Shown in pieces: positions 2,785 through 12,827 of a stretch of DNA of 12,827 nt; the first letter of the stretch is position 1, and the number at the start of each line of letters is the position of its first letter. Source of the DNA: Candidatus Zhuqueibacterota bacterium. Lineage in GTDB: Bacteria; Zhuqueibacterota; QNDG01. Below the pieces are notes generated by a model. It did no database searches and was not told the origin of the DNA. It was given only the letters and a program-made list of their open reading frames with translations. The stretch covers positions 1-12,827 of the forward strand of contig QNDG01000006.1 of the NCBI GenBank assembly GCA_003645915.1. Reading direction: 5' to 3'. A program made the translations under genes and the position numbers.

Positions 2785-3855
2785 ATGACTGTGAAATTAA
2801 ACAGCACACTTTTAATGCTGAGTATTATTGTTATTACAGTATCTGTTAATGTGGTTCAGGCACAGGAACCTTATAGACAGGGTACAACTGCAGCAAATTT
2901 TTTGGAAATTGGATTCGGAAGTGCCGGTAATGCTATGGGGGATGCTTATGTTAGTATGGCAAATGATATATCCTCTGTATTCTGGAATCCTGCCGGACTG
3001 GGCTTTATGAACAGAGGGGAGGCAGAATTCAATTATCAACCCATAATTTTAGATATAAACGCTATGGCTTTTGCTGCAGGCATGCCATTAGGGAATGTTG
3101 GTTCTTTTGCTATTAATTATATTCAGATGGATTACGGACGCAATGAAGTAACAACGATGGAAATGCAGGACGGTACAGGGGAGTTGTTTAATGCAACAGA
3201 ATTTGCCATTGGTTTTTCATTTGCCAGAAAACTTGCCCAGTGGTTTTCCTTTGGTGCCACAGCAAAATATATATCATCACAGATTTGGCAGACATCTGCA
3301 AATGCTTTTGCTGTTGATTTGGGGGTTATTATTCAGACAAACTTTTTTTCCAGTACAGGGGAAAGAGGTGACGGGATGAACATAGGAATGTGTATTTCAA
3401 ATTTTGGAACTAAAATGCGTTACATGGGAGATCAACTTTTAAATCCAATTGATATACTTCCTGATGAAGCCGGGAATTATCAGAGCGTTCCAGGGATGTT
3501 CAAAACAGAAGGATGGGAACTTCCCCTTTTATTTCGTGTAGGTGTTTCAGTTAATCCAATTGTAACAGAAAAAAGCAGGTTCAGTGTTTCTCTTGATGCA
3601 GTTCACCCTAACAATAACAGTGAATCAGTAAATGTGGGGGGACAATATAAGATAACAATGCCTACAGGTTGGTCGTTTTTTCTACGGGGGGGCTATAAGG
3701 CTTTATTTATGGTGCATTCAGAGTACGGTTTTTCATTTGGGGGTGGATTTGTTATGAATATGATGCATGGTAAAGGATTAAAAATTGAGTACTCATACAG
3801 GGAGCTTGGCATATTGGGGAATATTCAGACATACAATATAGGTCTAATGTTTTAA
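2785..3855 (+). CDS. PorV/PorQ-family outer-membrane beta-barrel protein
   Basis: The protein has 356 residues. A signal peptide covers about residues 1-26 (hydrophobic LLMLSIIVITVSV, cleavage after VVQA). The mature start carries the family's typical N-terminal block, residues 33-75: GTTAANFLEIG, GSAGNAMGDAYVS and SVFWNPAGLG. The rest alternates short beta-strands with turns rich in Gly and Asn, and it ends in an aromatic residue (GLMF), as outer-membrane barrels usually do. Known relatives (PorV/LptO, PorQ, UPF0164) act in type IX secretion, where PorV carries cargo from the translocon to the attachment complex. Whether this copy is the general PorV or a paralogue tied to the neighbouring cargo cannot be told from sequence. 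GAGAGG at 2771-2776, 8 bases before the ATG, fits a ribosome binding site. It lies 51 bases after the large cargo gene and 14 before the next gene, so co-transcription is likely. Confidence 0.88.
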   Translation: MTVKLNSTLLMLSIIVITVSVNVVQAQEPYRQGTTAANFLEIGFGSAGNAMGDAYVSMANDISSVFWNPAGLGFMNRGEAEFNYQPIILDINAMAFAAGMPLGNVGSFAINYIQMDYGRNEVTTMEMQDGTGELFNATEFAIGFSFARKLAQWFSFGATAKYISSQIWQTSANAFAVDLGVIIQTNFFSSTGERGDGMNIGMCISNFGTKMRYMGDQLLNPIDILPDEAGNYQSVPGMFKTEGWELPLLFRVGVSVNPIVTEKSRFSVSLDAVHPNNNSESVNVGGQYKITMPTGWSFFLRGGYKALFMVHSEYGFSFGGGFVMNMMHGKGLKIEYSYRELGILGNIQTYNIGLMF

Positions 3856-3869
3856 AAAGAGCTTATATA

Positions 3870-5390
3870 ATGGACCTGAAAAATATGAGAGCAGATAAAT
3901 ATTTAGTGATAGTTTTCATTATATTTGATATTTTTGTTTTATCATGCCAGAGAGAAAATGCCGAACAACCTTCTGAAAAAATATTAGCACGGATTGGAGA
4001 TAAAACTATATCAGTTAATGAATTTATTCGACGGGCTGAATATACAATAAGGCCGATTTACTGTAGAAAGGATAATTACATACACCGGAAAATTGTTCTT
4101 AATTCTCTGATTGCCGAAAAATTGCTTGCATTAGAAGCAGGGGATGAAAATAAGTTAGTAAAAACCCCATATTTTCAAGATTATTTAAAAGGTCGTCAAG
4201 AACAGGCCATGAGGCAATGGTTATTTTATAATAATTTCTATCAGAGAGTTAAGCTATCTCCACAAAAAATTAGTGAAAGAATGAAGTTAGTAGGTAGAAA
4301 GTATGATATTTCTTATTTTTCTGTCTCTGATACTTACGTTGCTCATAAAATTTCTAAAACTATGCATGACACAGTTGATTTTAAAATAAAATTCAATGAA
4401 TTAAGTAATGGAGCAGATCTCCCAAGAAGGTTTGTTCAGTGGAATAATCTTGAAACCAGGGAAGTAATTAATGCATTGTACAGTGGTTCCCCTAAAAAAG
4501 GAGATATTATTGGCCCGTTAAAACAGGATACTAACTATATTTTTATAAAGATTAATGGCTGGACAGAACGGGTTTATCTTTCGCAAAACACTAAAAAGCA
4601 ACTTTGGGAGGATGTAAAAGAACAAATGCAATATGATGAGGCGAAAGAAGAGTATGTAAAATTTGTAAAAGGATTAATGAAGGGAAAAAAATTAAGGTTT
4701 AATAATGAGACTTTTGAAACTTTGGTACCAATAATTGCAGATGACTACTTAAAATCACAGGAAGAAAAAAAAGCTGCCTTCAATAACCGATTCTGGAAAA
4801 AGGAATCACACCGAAATGATCTTGACAATCATAGTTCTAGTCTTAAAGACATTATTGATAAGCCGTTATTCACTGTAGAAGGTCAGACCTGGACAGTAAG
4901 GCAGTTTGAACTTGCACTTGTATCACATCCGTTGGTTTTCCGGAAACATAATATTTCTAAATCAGAATTTGCCGAGCAATTAAAATTTGCAATTGCAGAT
5001 CTAATAAGGGATCAATTTATAACTCAGGAAGCCTATAAACATGGATATGAAAATGTAAATGTTGTTAAAAGAAATGTGAGTATGTGGAGGGATAATCTTT
5101 TAGCAATATATAAAAGAAACAGCTGGTTAAAATTAAATAATAAAGAAGATGAATTTAAATCGAATATAATAAAAACTATTGAGAAAGATTTAAACCCTTA
5201 TATTCTCAGTATTATGAAAAAATATAATGATGAAATTGAAATAGATACCGAGTTATTTGAGAAGATAAAACTCAGCAAGATTAACAGTTTTATGACACAG
5301 CGTAATATGCCCTTCAAAATCATGGTGCCTTCTTTCCCAGTGATTACCAACCATAACAAACTTGATTATGGCAGGAAAATGCAGCATTGA
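3870..5390 (+). CDS. SurA/parvulin-like periplasmic chaperone lipoprotein (divergent)
   Basis: The protein has 506 residues. The N-terminus is a lipoprotein signal with a lipobox ending at Cys26 (FVLSC). Residues 37-60 (ILARIGDKTISVNEFIRRAEYT) match the opening of SurA/PrsA-type chaperone domains, followed by the helical segment expected there (about 70-135). Residues 144-233 have the outline of a parvulin (PPIC) domain: KYDISYFSVS at the first strand, then GDIIGPLKQDTNYIFIKI near its end. Usual active-site residues are not evident, so isomerase activity is doubtful. A second SurA-N-like segment appears near 332-395 (PLFTVEGQTWTVRQFELAL). Charged helices fill the rest. AAGAG at 3857-3861 sits 8 bases before the ATG; Met6 is an alternative start. 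The 14-base gap after the PorV-like gene points to one operon and suggests a role in folding outer-membrane or secreted products of this locus. Function is inferred from fold; the family match is moderate. Confidence 0.75.
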   Translation: MDLKNMRADKYLVIVFIIFDIFVLSCQRENAEQPSEKILARIGDKTISVNEFIRRAEYTIRPIYCRKDNYIHRKIVLNSLIAEKLLALEAGDENKLVKTPYFQDYLKGRQEQAMRQWLFYNNFYQRVKLSPQKISERMKLVGRKYDISYFSVSDTYVAHKISKTMHDTVDFKIKFNELSNGADLPRRFVQWNNLETREVINALYSGSPKKGDIIGPLKQDTNYIFIKINGWTERVYLSQNTKKQLWEDVKEQMQYDEAKEEYVKFVKGLMKGKKLRFNNETFETLVPIIADDYLKSQEEKKAAFNNRFWKKESHRNDLDNHSSSLKDIIDKPLFTVEGQTWTVRQFELALVSHPLVFRKHNISKSEFAEQLKFAIADLIRDQFITQEAYKHGYENVNVVKRNVSMWRDNLLAIYKRNSWLKLNNKEDEFKSNIIKTIEKDLNPYILSIMKKYNDEIEIDTELFEKIKLSKINSFMTQRNMPFKIMVPSFPVITNHNKLDYGRKMQH

Positions 5391-5445: not shown

Positions 5446-7236
5446 ATGAGATGTAAATATATTATATTAATTGTTCTTATATCAACTATAACAGTTTATG
5501 CAAAAAATTATAAAGGTGCTGAGTTACGTACAAAGCAGGCATATCTTTATGGAAGGTTCGAAGTAAGATACAAAGCTTCATGGGGAAGTGGTCAGACTTC
5601 AACATTTTTTACGTACAATGATGATTACCCAAATACTCCATGGAATGAGATTGATATTGAAATACTTGGAAGGTATGATGATGATGTTCAGTTTAATACA
5701 ATTACTAATTACCAAACTAATCATCTTAGACATCAATTTGTAAGTTTTAACCCAGGGTTGGATTTTCATACTTATGGAATTGAATGGACGCCTTCATATG
5801 TAGCATGGTTTATTGATGGTGTTGAAGTATATCGCCAAACAGGAGAGCACATATCTTTATTGAAGTATCCTCAAAAAATCATGATGAATATATGGAATCC
5901 TGCATATTCAGACTGGGTAGGCGAATTTGATGATCGCACTTTGCCGTTTTTTGCTTATTATGATTTTGTGAGCTACAGCTCATATACTCCCGGACAAGGT
6001 AATTGTGGTACTGATAATAATTTTACTCTTCAGTGGACAGATGAATTCAACAATTTTAACAGTAGCAGATGGCAAAAAGCTACACATACATGGAATGGTA
6101 ATAATTCGGATTTTATTCAGGAAAACTGTTTGTTTAAAGATGGTAAAATGATATTATGCCTTACAGATAATTATAACACTGGTTATACAGATAAGAATCC
6201 TCCTGTAGTAATGTGGGCAATAGCAGAGGATGACAGTGTTATCGTGCATTTTTCAGAGAATGTAACGGAAACAAGTGCAGAAAATCTTTTAAATTATGTT
6301 ATCCCGGGTGCTCAGGTACATAATGCCCGGTTGTTAAGAGATAAACGTACAGTTGTATTACGTGTTAATGGTATGCTAAAAAGCAATACTTACAATCTTG
6401 TATGTCTGGGTGTTGAAGATGAAATGGAAAATCACAATAAGCTTCAGGGTCAAAATATCCCTATTACCAGTATTCCAACCATTTATTTTCCTTTCAAAAT
6501 TAATGTTGGATCTAATAAATATAATGATTACAAAAATGATCAAGCCTGGGACTACCAGAAAAATTATGGTTATGAAGGTGGAAGCTCCAGAGGGATGACA
6601 CAATCAGTATCTGGTACAGAAGATGATCCGATATTCCGAACTTGGCGACAGGGATTAGCAGCGTACAGAATTCGGGTGCCTAATGGTGTTTATAATATAA
6701 AGATGCTTTTTTCGGAAAACATATTTGAAAATTCGGGCCTTCGATGTTTTGATGTCTATATTGAAAATGTACTGGTCATAGAAAATCTTGATATATTTAA
6801 GGAAGTCGGAAAACATGTCGCTCACATAGAAGGAATTAATAATGTTTCTGTCGATGACGGAATTATAGATGTCCATTTTAGTGCAGTCGTAAACGAACCT
6901 GTTTTATCGGGTTTAATCATTGAGCAGGTATCAACAGGAATTGTTGAAAAAGAGTCTGGAATAAAAGAATTTTTATTAAAGGCAAATTATCCCAACCCGT
7001 TTAACAATAAGACAATTATACCGTTTGTTCTCAACGATTATGGTCTTGTTTTTATTAAAATATTTGATCTTACTGGCCGGTTGGTTTATAGCAAAAATAT
7101 GCCTGTGCAGAGCCCTGGACGGTATAAATTTATATGGAAATATGATGGTCCTTCAGGAATTTATATATGCAGACTTGATTTTTTAACAAATAATAGCTTA
7201 TATTCATCTAGTAGAAAGATGCTTTATGTTAAGTAG
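5446..7236 (+). CDS. Circularly permuted GH16 lichenase (beta-1,3-1,4-glucanase) with Ig-like, malectin-like and T9SS-tail domains
   Basis: The protein has 596 residues with a signal peptide of about 19 residues (cut after VYA). It would hydrolyse mixed-linkage beta-glucan outside the cell. The catalytic motif WNEIDIEILG places the nucleophile at Glu68, the assisting Asp at 70 and the acid/base at Glu72; the EIDIE form without an extra residue is the lichenase type. The fold is permuted: the segment that opens Bacillus lichenases (F..FN...S..W.KA, then the G.M.L.LT strand) lies after the catalytic part at residues 193-241, joined through YTPGQG (180-185). Fibrobacter succinogenes lichenase has the same order, including a KDFSGAEL-like start (here KNYKGAEL) and YTPGQG. 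Next come an Ig-like/Big_5-type domain (about 252-342), a malectin-like domain (about 346-494; INVGS, SGLIIEQ) and a T9SS tail (514-596; NYPNPFN). AAGGAA at 5429-5434 precedes the start. The 3' end overlaps the next GH16 gene by 11 bases. Confidence 0.9.
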   Translation: MRCKYIILIVLISTITVYAKNYKGAELRTKQAYLYGRFEVRYKASWGSGQTSTFFTYNDDYPNTPWNEIDIEILGRYDDDVQFNTITNYQTNHLRHQFVSFNPGLDFHTYGIEWTPSYVAWFIDGVEVYRQTGEHISLLKYPQKIMMNIWNPAYSDWVGEFDDRTLPFFAYYDFVSYSSYTPGQGNCGTDNNFTLQWTDEFNNFNSSRWQKATHTWNGNNSDFIQENCLFKDGKMILCLTDNYNTGYTDKNPPVVMWAIAEDDSVIVHFSENVTETSAENLLNYVIPGAQVHNARLLRDKRTVVLRVNGMLKSNTYNLVCLGVEDEMENHNKLQGQNIPITSIPTIYFPFKINVGSNKYNDYKNDQAWDYQKNYGYEGGSSRGMTQSVSGTEDDPIFRTWRQGLAAYRIRVPNGVYNIKMLFSENIFENSGLRCFDVYIENVLVIENLDIFKEVGKHVAHIEGINNVSVDDGIIDVHFSAVVNEPVLSGLIIEQVSTGIVEKESGIKEFLLKANYPNPFNNKTIIPFVLNDYGLVFIKIFDLTGRLVYSKNMPVQSPGRYKFIWKYDGPSGIYICRLDFLTNNSLYSSSRKMLYVK

Positions 7237-8116
7237 GGCGGGTATTGTGAAATTAAGATTTAAATTCATTGTTTGGATATTATTGATGGTTAATCTTCTT
7301 GTTTGTTTGTCTTTAAGCTGCAGTAAAAAAATCAGCAACTCTGAAAGGGAGCATAATCAAGATATCAAAACACCTGCTGGTTATGTTTTAATCTGGAATG
7401 ATGAATTTAATGGTTCTACGATTAATCCTGAGAAATGGGAGCACGAGGTTAACGCTGCAGGAGGCGGTAATAATGAATTACAGTATTATACTGACCGTGT
7501 AGAAAATTCATATGTTGATAACGGATTTTTAATATTACAGGCATTTAAGGAAAAATATACAGGAGAAGAAGGTACAAGAGAGTTTACATCTGCAAGATTG
7601 AGGACAATTCATAAAGGAGACTGGAAATACGGAAGATTTGAAGTTTGTGCAAAATTACCTTTTGGCCAGGGTATATGGCCTGCAATATGGATGATGCCTA
7701 CAGATAATGTTTACGGTGGATGGGCTGCAAGCGGTGAGATTGACATTATGGAGCTTCTTGGTCAGGAGCCAGATAAAATATATGGGACAATACATTACGG
7801 TGGAAAATATCCGCGTAACAAGCATAGTGGTTCGTTCTATAAATATCCTGAATCTTTTAGTGATGGTTTTCATGTTTTTTCAATAGAATGGGATACAACT
7901 GAGATAAGATGGTACGTTGATGATATTCAATATGCAGTTCAGACAGAGTGGTATTCAGAAAATGGTGAATATCCTGCACCTTTTAACCAGCGATTTTACC
8001 TGATAATTAATGTGGCTGTAGGCGGTAACTGGCCTGGAAATCCTGATACTACTACACAGTTTCCTCAAAAAATGGTAGTTGATTATGTCCGGGTTTTTCA
8101 AAAGAGAGTTGATTGA
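7226..8116 (+). CDS. GH16 laminarinase-type endo-beta-1,3-glucanase, lipoprotein
   Basis: The protein has 296 residues and is essentially a signal plus one GH16 domain in normal order. The lipobox ends at Cys32 (LSLSC), so the enzyme is probably membrane-anchored; it has no T9SS tail. The domain starts at residue 53 (YVLIWNDEFNG), passes NNELQYYT (82-89), YGRFEV (135-140) and the substrate-cleft WPAIWMMP (151-158), and reaches the catalytic GEIDIMELLG with nucleophile Glu171, Asp173 and acid/base Glu176. The EIDIME form with the extra beta-bulge residue is typical of laminarinases (GH16_3-like). It ends with a VDYVRVFQ strand, as usual. The ATG at 7226 lies inside the preceding gene (11-base overlap, suggesting translational coupling). 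A GTG at 7247 would give a tidier lipoprotein signal (MKLRFKFIVWILL) and a 10-base gap, and is a serious alternative. Laminarin or mixed-linkage glucan as substrate follows from family and neighbours. Confidence 0.92.
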   Translation: MLSRAGIVKLRFKFIVWILLMVNLLVCLSLSCSKKISNSEREHNQDIKTPAGYVLIWNDEFNGSTINPEKWEHEVNAAGGGNNELQYYTDRVENSYVDNGFLILQAFKEKYTGEEGTREFTSARLRTIHKGDWKYGRFEVCAKLPFGQGIWPAIWMMPTDNVYGGWAASGEIDIMELLGQEPDKIYGTIHYGGKYPRNKHSGSFYKYPESFSDGFHVFSIEWDTTEIRWYVDDIQYAVQTEWYSENGEYPAPFNQRFYLIINVAVGGNWPGNPDTTTQFPQKMVVDYVRVFQKRVD

Positions 8117-8371: not shown

Positions 8372-10345
8372 ATGGGGAATATTATTGTGTCAGCATATTT
8401 GAGAAAAATGTTCATTGCCTATTGTGTTTTTATCAGCCTTATTAACTGTCGAGCGCAGGGCATAGAAATAAAAAATGGCTGGTATTACATTAATGGGGAT
8501 AAGTTTTTTATTAAAGGGATTGGCTATGAGACACATACAAGACCCGGACAGGTGCCGTGGGTTTACGAATTTGACGCTGATATTATAAAATTTGACCTTA
8601 ATAGAATAAAAGAAGCAGGATTTAATACTATACGTACATGGGGCGCATTAAGTGAAGAAGAATTACAATTAGTGGAACAATCTGGTTTAAAAGTTCTGTT
8701 CGGGATCTGGATTGATCCAGCAGGTGATTTTGGGGATGAGACTTTTGTTCAGTCTGCTCTGAATCATGTTTCGAGTGTTTTATCATATTCTAAGAAATAC
8801 TCATGTATTTTAGGGTATTTAATAATGAATGAACCTCAGGTTAATAGTATCTATAATTCAGGTGCAGAAAACCTTATTTCTTTATGGAAGTCAATTATAG
8901 AGATAATTAATGCTAAGCATCCTGGCGTACCTGTTTCATTTTCAAACTCAATGGTTGGGGACTATATTGGAATGGATATTTTTAATTTTGCAGCATATAA
9001 TGCGTATATATACAATCCTGTGACGTTAAGTAAATCAAGTGGTTATAGAGGATTTCTTCAATGGTTGAAAGATCGAAGGTCACCAGATAAACCATTTATT
9101 ATCACTGAATATGGATTATCTGTTTCACCGGGCGTATCATTAACAGAATATGGTTATGGTAAAAACACTGTTGATCAGCAGAAAGAAGGAGACTTGTTAA
9201 TGTATCGTCAGTTGATTGATGCTGATGCTCAAGGTGGGTGTGTTTTTCAATATCATGATGGTTGGTGGAAAGGTGGTAATGAATTTATTCATGATCCAAA
9301 TCCTGAGGAATGGTTTGGATTAATTGGATTTACAAGCGAGTTTGATAAAACCGGTGAAACAAGGCCTGCATGGGGAGGATTTAAAAGATATAATAAAGCG
9401 ATAATAACCAATCCAAAAAATGAGCATATTTATCAAGAAAAAATTCCCCTTGAAATTTATTCATCTGAAGATGTATTCTCTTTTAAAATATTTATTGAAG
9501 ATAGTGTTGTTTTTGAGAAAATATTAGATGGCAATTATTTTTCAGAAAATTTAAGCCTGACATTTGAAGACAGTATTAAAGATGTTTTGTTAGATTTTCG
9601 TTTTTTTAATTCAAATAACGATACTCTCAAATCAGAAGTCATATCTATCTTATATACAAAAAATATGATAGAGCTCCCGAAGCTAAAATTTGAGATTTTA
9701 CCAGGGGAGCTTCTTCCGGATGCACGGAATTATATGAACATTCATGTGGTAAAGGATTCATTATTTCTAATTAACGATAATAAGATTGATTATGCTTTTC
9801 ATCCTCATTTAGGTTTTGACCCAGGGCAGGCAAAATCAAAAGTAATGGAATTTCGTGAGGGTACTTGGACTTATCTTGATTTTTTTGAAATTCCAGAGGA
9901 TACAAAAGTAGCCACTTTTAGCGCTGGTTTTACTATAACTTATGGACAATTTCAAAAAAGGATCTGTGCACAAAAAATATTACTCTGGGAAGATTGGGCT
10001 GAACCAATTGCAGCATCAGAATTGATTACAGGAGTTAACTATTCTACTAATGATTCTGTGAAGAAAAAATCAACTATAAAATTGTTTCCGGCATATCCGA
10101 ATCCTTTTAATCAAAGTACAACAATCAAGTATTTTATCCCGTCAGGAAAGATAATAAAAGAACCTGCCAGTCTTAAAATATATAATATTCTTGGTCAAGA
10201 ATTGACCGTTATTGAAAATTTAGATATATTGCCAGGTGTCCATGTTTTGCATTTTAACAGTAGCGAGCTTAGTAGTGGAATGTATTTTTACTCCTTAGTC
10301 ATAGGTGACCTGGTTTTAGTGAAAAAGTTTATTGTGATTGATTAA
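8372..10345 (+). CDS. Clan GH-A glycoside hydrolase (GH5/GH2-like barrel) with T9SS tail, probable beta-glucan enzyme
   Basis: The protein has 657 residues. A signal peptide lies within residues 1-29 (FIAYCVFISLINCRAQ); Met13 (ATG at 8408) is a possible later start. There is no good ribosome binding site for either, and the AAGGAG at 8344-8349 is about 22 bases upstream of the first ATG. Residues 31-345 form a TIM barrel of clan GH-A type: FFIKGIGYETH at the first strand, DLNRIKEAGFNTIRTWG (75-91), the strand-4 acid/base Glu154 in IMNEPQ, and the strand-7 nucleophile Glu246 in FIITEYG. The exact family (GH5, GH2-type barrel or another) cannot be fixed by eye. Residues about 350-437 look Ig-like, and 438-565 are a module I do not recognise (possibly carbohydrate-binding: HPHLGFDPG, MEFREGTWTYLDFF). 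A T9SS tail fills 571-657 (LFPAYPNPFNQ to VKKFIVID). Beside two GH16 beta-glucanases, a beta-glucan or its oligosaccharides is the likely substrate, by inference. Confidence 0.82.
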   Translation: MGNIIVSAYLRKMFIAYCVFISLINCRAQGIEIKNGWYYINGDKFFIKGIGYETHTRPGQVPWVYEFDADIIKFDLNRIKEAGFNTIRTWGALSEEELQLVEQSGLKVLFGIWIDPAGDFGDETFVQSALNHVSSVLSYSKKYSCILGYLIMNEPQVNSIYNSGAENLISLWKSIIEIINAKHPGVPVSFSNSMVGDYIGMDIFNFAAYNAYIYNPVTLSKSSGYRGFLQWLKDRRSPDKPFIITEYGLSVSPGVSLTEYGYGKNTVDQQKEGDLLMYRQLIDADAQGGCVFQYHDGWWKGGNEFIHDPNPEEWFGLIGFTSEFDKTGETRPAWGGFKRYNKAIITNPKNEHIYQEKIPLEIYSSEDVFSFKIFIEDSVVFEKILDGNYFSENLSLTFEDSIKDVLLDFRFFNSNNDTLKSEVISILYTKNMIELPKLKFEILPGELLPDARNYMNIHVVKDSLFLINDNKIDYAFHPHLGFDPGQAKSKVMEFREGTWTYLDFFEIPEDTKVATFSAGFTITYGQFQKRICAQKILLWEDWAEPIAASELITGVNYSTNDSVKKKSTIKLFPAYPNPFNQSTTIKYFIPSGKIIKEPASLKIYNILGQELTVIENLDILPGVHVLHFNSSELSSGMYFYSLVIGDLVLVKKFIVID

Positions 10346-11356: not shown

Positions 11357-12827
<1,471 letters not shown>

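Follow-up and report, generated by a model that had tools for sequence, protein, structure and literature searches.

A circularly permuted, lichenase-type GH16 enzyme from a probable KSB1 bacterium and its permuted relatives

The window analyzed here, a stretch of 12,827 bases of DNA from a bacterium probably of the phylum KSB1, encodes a GH16 enzyme with a circularly permuted jelly roll, in which the catalytic segment comes ahead of the strands that are N-terminal in the native order. We observed this order of the segments, a predicted model that matches the lichenase fold, and an intact catalytic motif in the same protein. Permuted lichenases form a large family in KSB1, Marinimicrobia, Ignavibacteria/Bacteroidota, and Calditrichota, and the Fibrobacter enzymes are a long, distant branch. 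Taken as a whole, the best explanation, which we hold with considerable confidence, is a secreted GH16_21-type permuted lichenase of the KSB1 phylum, with a permutation of single origin and a place in a glucan locus.

Segment order, fold, and predicted activity

The open reading frame occupies positions 5446–7236 of the window and has a product of 596 amino acids; the gene and all its features described below lie on the + strand. Residues 1–19 (5446–5502) resemble a signal peptide that ends in VYA and is followed by KNYKGAEL. The cleavage site was read from the sequence rather than computed, and the domain model has a helix of low pLDDT at residues 4–12. Segment A, the catalytic part of GH16, comprises residues 20–179 (5503–5982) and was recognized through PDB matches and PF00722 (residues 14–151, E = 9.4e-29). 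The ExDxE catalytic motif, W66-N-E68-I-D70-I-E72, lies at 5641–5661. The junction linker YTPGQGNCGTD (residues 180–190; 5983–6015) joins the native C-terminus to the native N-terminus, and segment B (residues 191–245; 6016–6180) supplies the native N-terminal strands, as indicated by sequence matches and by strands at residues 193–199, 209–211, 221–223, 228–231, and 234–241 of the domain model.

An earlier note had proposed that the catalytic half comes first and the opening strands follow, in the order of the Fibrobacter lichenase. The motifs it quoted are present where it placed them, and the A–B order was borne out by PDB matches, motif positions, and rotated-query searches, in which a query rotated to the native order regained full-length lichenase matches. 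The relationship to the Fibrobacter enzyme was confirmed by the same matches and by the predicted model, which superposes over both segments on the Fibrobacter lichenase and on engineered permutants, and in which residues 193–241 complete one jelly roll. The view that these residues form a module of their own or stem from shuffling, with a GH16 domain that is simply truncated, would agree with the Pfam GH16 model, which reports residues 14–151 only, but the full-length matches and the superposition across both segments make it hardly credible, and on the strength of models and sequence we rejected it.

The cut loop and the linker are those of the F. succinogenes type, represented in the window protein by KNYKGAEL and YTPGQG. 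The chain starts in the loop before the strand KNYKGAELRT, just past the signal peptide; in a native-order protein (L119) the sequence of this loop is ...LTLKPEFYIDRNYTGGELRS..., and the matching K-N-Y-K-G-A-E-L is where the permuted proteins start. Because residue 22 of the window protein aligns to position 59 of 2AYH, which the table in PMC2395249 gives as the cut of both 1CPM and 1CPN, the cut is the same as that of these engineered permutants.

Beyond the lichenase, a bacterial Ig-like domain (residues about 250–345; 6193–6480) was recognized from strands in the full-length model (pLDDT 91.8). A Pfam scan of the window protein itself gave no match for it, and the homologue P0038 carries PF13205, the same type of Ig-like domain, in its precomputed annotation. 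A malectin domain follows at residues 351–483 (6496–6894; PF11721, E = 1.3e-22). The C-terminal sorting domain at residues 515–596 (6988–7233) reached 30.0 bits with TIGR04183 (cut-off 23), which marks the protein as a predicted substrate of type IX secretion, and PF18962 scored 23.9 bits on the same tail (515–578), below its cut-off of 27. For the accessory domains, a structure search with the full-length model returned malectin (9ikp) and beta-glucuronidase.

The Fibrobacter succinogenes 1,3-1,4-beta-D-glucanase was reportedly described as a natural circular permutant by Tsai et al. in 2003. An engineered permuted Clostridium lichenase is cited in two lichenase papers, and another glucanase, from a fungus, was reportedly found to be a circular permutant in a 2010 study. 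According to their PDB titles, 1MVE, 1ZM1, and 3AXD are entries of the F. succinogenes enzyme. In contrast to that enzyme, the window protein has added Ig-like, malectin, and type IX sorting domains, has His rather than Trp at position 214, and has neighbors that suggest a type IX/TonB glucan locus. The engineered Bacillus permutants 1CPM and 1CPN differ in being laboratory constructs without the natural linker or extra domains. Native-order GH16_21 lichenases (1GBG, 1MAC, 3O5S, 3WVJ, and 3I4I) share the catalytic motif and most subsite aromatics but keep the native segment order, and GH16_3 laminarinases (the next gene; 4DFS and 3AZX) share the GH16 jelly roll but have the native order and belong to a different subfamily.

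To describe the active site, we examined 444 permuted sequences, of which 439 aligned well enough for residue statistics. F55, W66, E68, D70, E72, and W157 were invariant in all 439, whereas Y57 was variable (Tyr in 387); at position 214, His was present in 315 sequences and Trp in 119. With the 1mac row as the guide, F55, Y57, W66, and W157 correspond to Phe92, Tyr94, Trp103, and Trp192 of the Bacillus enzyme, and section 24 of PMC6827312 includes these four among the marks of GH16_21 (1GBG numbering). The window protein therefore has the ExDxE motif (E68/D70/E72) together with the equivalents of Phe92, Trp103, and Trp192; at Tyr24 of 1GBG the pairwise alignment has a gap, which leaves this residue without an aligned counterpart. 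On the BglS equivalog model NF047856, the window protein scored 155.3 bits and the Fibrobacter enzyme 112.4 bits, both below the cut-off of 300, so the window protein is not an equivalog of BglS, and this score does not decide the subfamily.

From its sequence, the gene product would be a secreted endo-beta-1,3-1,4-glucanase of the GH16_21 type. It is rather unlikely, although conceivable, that the permuted lichenase fold serves another substrate, such as a laminarin-like beta-1,3-glucan: a GH16_3 laminarinase adjoins the gene, GH3 genes also lie nearby, and position 214 is divided between His and Trp, with Trp in Fibrobacter, but the residues F55, W66, and W157, which the cited section of PMC6827312 treats as GH16_21 marks, are constant throughout the aligned sequences.

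Distribution of permuted lichenases

The earlier note had expected a permuted enzyme outside Fibrobacter to be of value. Such an enzyme does exist here, but it is one member of a large permuted family rather than a lone case. Homology searches gave 1871, 436, and 709 matches, and the 120 listed from each amounted to 359 distinct proteins, which include near-copies of the window protein and one synthetic construct; because the searches began from permuted queries, the listed proteins lean toward permuted relatives. Among these 359, 354 were permuted, 353 with a plain A–B order and one with segment A split by an internal deletion, and the remaining five were short A-only pieces; none had the order B–A.

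Species-representative genomes contain 364 stretches coding for a relative, of which the best 80 were kept as named loci. All 80 had the permuted A–B order (two of the loci share one contig). By title, these best 80 included 31 Ignavibacteria-type loci (with Melioribacter and Stygiobacter), 19 from Marinimicrobia, 12 from Bacteroidetes/Bacteroidota, 6 from Calditrichota, 5 from KSB1, and 1 each from Chlorobiota and Caldisericaceae. The Caldisericaceae label, carried by genome G091, is probably wrong, and the genome collection puts G091 under Calditrichota.

Whole-genome searches in four phyla, whose centers were picked for holding the gene, detected the permuted gene in 148 of 762 genomes. In KSB1, 26 of 82 genomes, including that of the window, had family matches of >130 bits, and the A–B order was confirmed for each in the loci. 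The counts for the other three phyla were made by hand from matches reaching query residue 240 or beyond: 69 of 245 genomes in Marinimicrobia (70 matched, one of them, G237, with the A part alone), 36 of 395 evenly drawn genomes in Bacteroidota in the GTDB sense (including Ignavibacteria), and 17 of 40 in Calditrichota. These four phyla belong to the FCB group. A scan of viral contigs found no relative. A search for Fibrobacter-like enzymes in the 61 genomes of the family of G494, the genome of locus L171, returned G494 itself and two weak partial matches. In many Marinimicrobia genomes the long permuted lichenase has a shorter permuted one as a close companion, in most cases immediately downstream (L041, L054, L060, L074, L083, L178–L180, and L182).

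The permuted and the native-order form of the gene can occur in one genome. In the KSB1 genomes G016 and G027, the two share a contig and are separated by about 30 kb; in G614, of the Bacteroidota phylum, they lie within about 8 kb. The native-order copy of G614 is an open frame of 345 amino acids, and two stops in the match fall beyond its end.

Among the papers listed by searches of open PubMed Central, we found no report of permuted GH16 lichenases outside Fibrobacter, and the main text of PMC6827312 contains neither "permut" nor "Fibrobacter." As far as the open-access literature goes, the distribution of the family seems not to be in print.

One permutation event or several

The permutation most likely arose once. 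We favor one event because the junction linker is shared with Fibrobacter; the trees do not settle the question. In the 439 aligned permuted sequences, P182 was present in 433 and G185 in 427. Of the 120 proteins that the Fibrobacter search listed, 95 had the form YTPGQG itself, as did 7 of the 239 other listed proteins and 2 of 85 ORFs of the named loci; the commonest forms among the 239 were YTPGSG, YTPGTG, and YTPGAG. The pattern Y-T-P-G-x-G was absent from all 13 native-order rows compared, and the linker is a by-product of the permutation event and no part of the native fold. The linker is missing from two permuted proteins, L171 and L174, and the N-terminal stretches of L174 and L177 contain cysteine and are unrelated to the usual start. 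The divergent permuted members are L171 (G494), L172 (G400), and L174–L177.

Near-identical rows were removed before the tree counts (146 of 151 kept). In a 90-row tree, which omitted 56 of the 84 permuted rows of the named loci, the permuted rows needed two changes and were united in 12% of bootstrap trees. In a 42-row tree with 26 of 58 permuted rows, 5 of 8 Fibrobacter rows, no outgroup, and without the native-order rows L145, L146, L147, L148, L165, and L181, a single branch (99/98) split permuted from native-order rows. When L145, L146, and 4 of 7 outgroup rows were restored (48 rows), L145 and L146 fell inside the permuted group, the starred branches forced two or more changes, and no bootstrap tree united the permuted rows. 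The tree of segment A alone needed three changes, one of them forced, and again united the permuted rows in 0%. AU tests did not reject trees in which all permuted rows were held together (p = 0.27; 0.335 on segment A alone). The choice of rows therefore matters: the clean split of the 42-row tree was lost in the other two. L145 (G053) and L146 (G029) are divergent native-order, lichenase-like KSB1 genes, and their position inside the permuted group of the outgroup-rooted tree might be a long-branch artefact or a return to the native order.

These trees bear on the alternative that this loop was opened by permutation more than once, independently in the Fibrobacter lineage and, one or more times, in the remaining members. 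Such a history would suit the unresolved fork between Fibrobacter with L171 and the main permuted clade in the 90-row tree, as well as the low bootstrap values obtained with long native-order rows and an outgroup. The loop also tolerates cuts, since an engineered permutant opened there folds, judging from the titles of 1CPM and 1CPN and the cut tabulated in PMC2395249. However, Fibrobacter and the other permuted enzymes share both the linker YTPGxG and the start K-x-[YF]-x-G-[AG]-E, and the 42-row tree unites the permuted rows, so we regard repeated permutation as improbable and prefer a single event.

In the 90-row, 42-row, and 48-row trees, Fibrobacter groups with L171 of the Bacteroidota phylum (99/93, 100/99, and 100/99, respectively) and the window enzyme groups with L013 (100/81, 99/85, and 100/88), which the genome collection places in Marinimicrobia via G301. 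Because of this grouping with L013, exchange between phyla is likely, unless the L013 bin is contaminated. A recent transfer from Fibrobacter to the window organism was rejected: the nearest rows are from KSB1 and Marinimicrobia, and Fibrobacter is a distant long branch. The earlier note had suggested that a permuted enzyme outside Fibrobacter would help to date the event or show transfer; the GH16 trees were built, but they fixed neither a date nor a direction of transfer.

Circular permutation usually proceeds by gene duplication followed by loss of the outer halves. A native-order lichenase gene may have been duplicated and have lost its outer halves in this manner, and the permuted gene would then have spread by descent and by exchange between related phyla, reaching Fibrobacter as well. 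No duplication intermediate (B–A–B) was present among the 359 listed proteins or among 210 ORFs with an A segment (186 partly overlapping loci).

Neighboring genes and the putative glucan locus

The following neighbors all lie on the + strand of the window. Upstream are orf1, the 3' part of a large protein without family assignment (1–2733); a PorV/PorQ-family outer membrane protein (2785–3855; NF033709, 202.2 bits, cut-off 90); and a candidate SurA-like periplasmic chaperone (3870–5390; PF13623, 22.8 bits, below the cut-off of 28.5, with no NCBIfam match). Downstream are a native-order GH16_3-type laminarinase (7226–8116), which overlaps the permuted gene by 11 bases, and a candidate glycoside hydrolase with a type IX tail (8372–10345; PF02836, 27.6 bits, cut-off 21; PF18962, 32.8 bits). 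The latter protein also has weak GH2 TIM-barrel and GH72 matches. Further downstream of the glucan genes, a groEL-like chaperonin gene (11372–12826 of the window) is cut by the contig end; the locus may stop at this gene. A promoter and terminator scan gave signals at or below the level of shuffled sequence.

In G001, a sister genome of the same genus, the order is a type IX-tailed protein, GH3, a CBM9/type IX protein, a TonB receptor, and orf1 (1152 amino acids, with no family match), followed by frames of 356, 506, 600, and 305 amino acids that match the PorV-like protein, the SurA-like protein, the permuted lichenase, and the GH16_3 enzyme of the window in size and order. Among the 80 named loci (the best 80 of 364), homologues of PorV were found in 61, orf1 in 55, and SurA in 21, and a GH16_3-like match in 18 (phmmer, E 1e-8, anywhere in the locus, with flanks of ≤ 4 kb and many contig ends). 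Loci of relatives contained a TonB receptor, a CBM9 protein, GH3, a ROK kinase, and sugar transporters in Ignavibacteria (L195); GH16_3, GH5, and two GH3 in Marinimicrobia (L196); GH3, a CBM9 protein, and a TonB receptor in KSB1 (L186 of G027); a TonB receptor, GH9, GH2, and GH3 in the Bacteroidota phylum (L198); and GH9, a sodium symporter, GH18, CotH, and a LacI regulator in Calditrichota (L197). Around the Fibrobacter-like L171, the 3 of 16 frames scanned encode an esterase and a symporter in addition to the enzyme. These TonB receptors, GH enzymes, and transporters support a role in the degradation and uptake of beta-glucan, and the window genes and the neighbors in relatives are likely to represent a beta-glucan utilization locus.

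No SusD was found in the neighbors scanned, and orf1 might take its place in a glucan uptake pair. Three longer forms of orf1 (L194, L195, and L196) had no match in a Pfam scan. Across phyla, orf1 travels with the PorV-family protein (L010–L086), joined in several loci by a TonB receptor; a paralogue of orf1 lies at G000:C61 (37% identity over part). Among the papers listed by a literature search on PorV and TonB loci, nothing concerned the glucan locus.

GH16 enzymes use a retaining mechanism with two glutamates. Once exported and folded like an ordinary lichenase, the permuted enzyme would cut mixed-linkage beta-glucan by this mechanism, with the malectin domain presumably binding the glucan and type IX secretion displaying or releasing the enzyme. 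A TonB receptor, as found in the locus of the sister genome, would take up the fragments, and the GH16_3 and GH3 enzymes may finish them. A bolder version, which is possible though doubtful, holds that one old event took place in FCB-related phyla, that the lichenase is the core of the glucan locus, that Fibrobacter is an offshoot, and that L145 and L146 are perhaps reversions. If this is true, the locus would be built on a TonB receptor, a large orf1-type protein, and a PorV-family protein, and the textbook Fibrobacter enzyme would be a side branch that lacks the additional domains.

Citations of the permuted lichenase usually refer to Fibrobacter only, but hundreds of permuted relatives exist. 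Native-order family models (PF00722 and NF047856) pick up no more than the catalytic part of these proteins, and routine annotation therefore misses the permutation. With native-order cousins in the same phyla and a marker at the junction, the single origin of the permutation, its age, and its effect on stability or secretion become testable.
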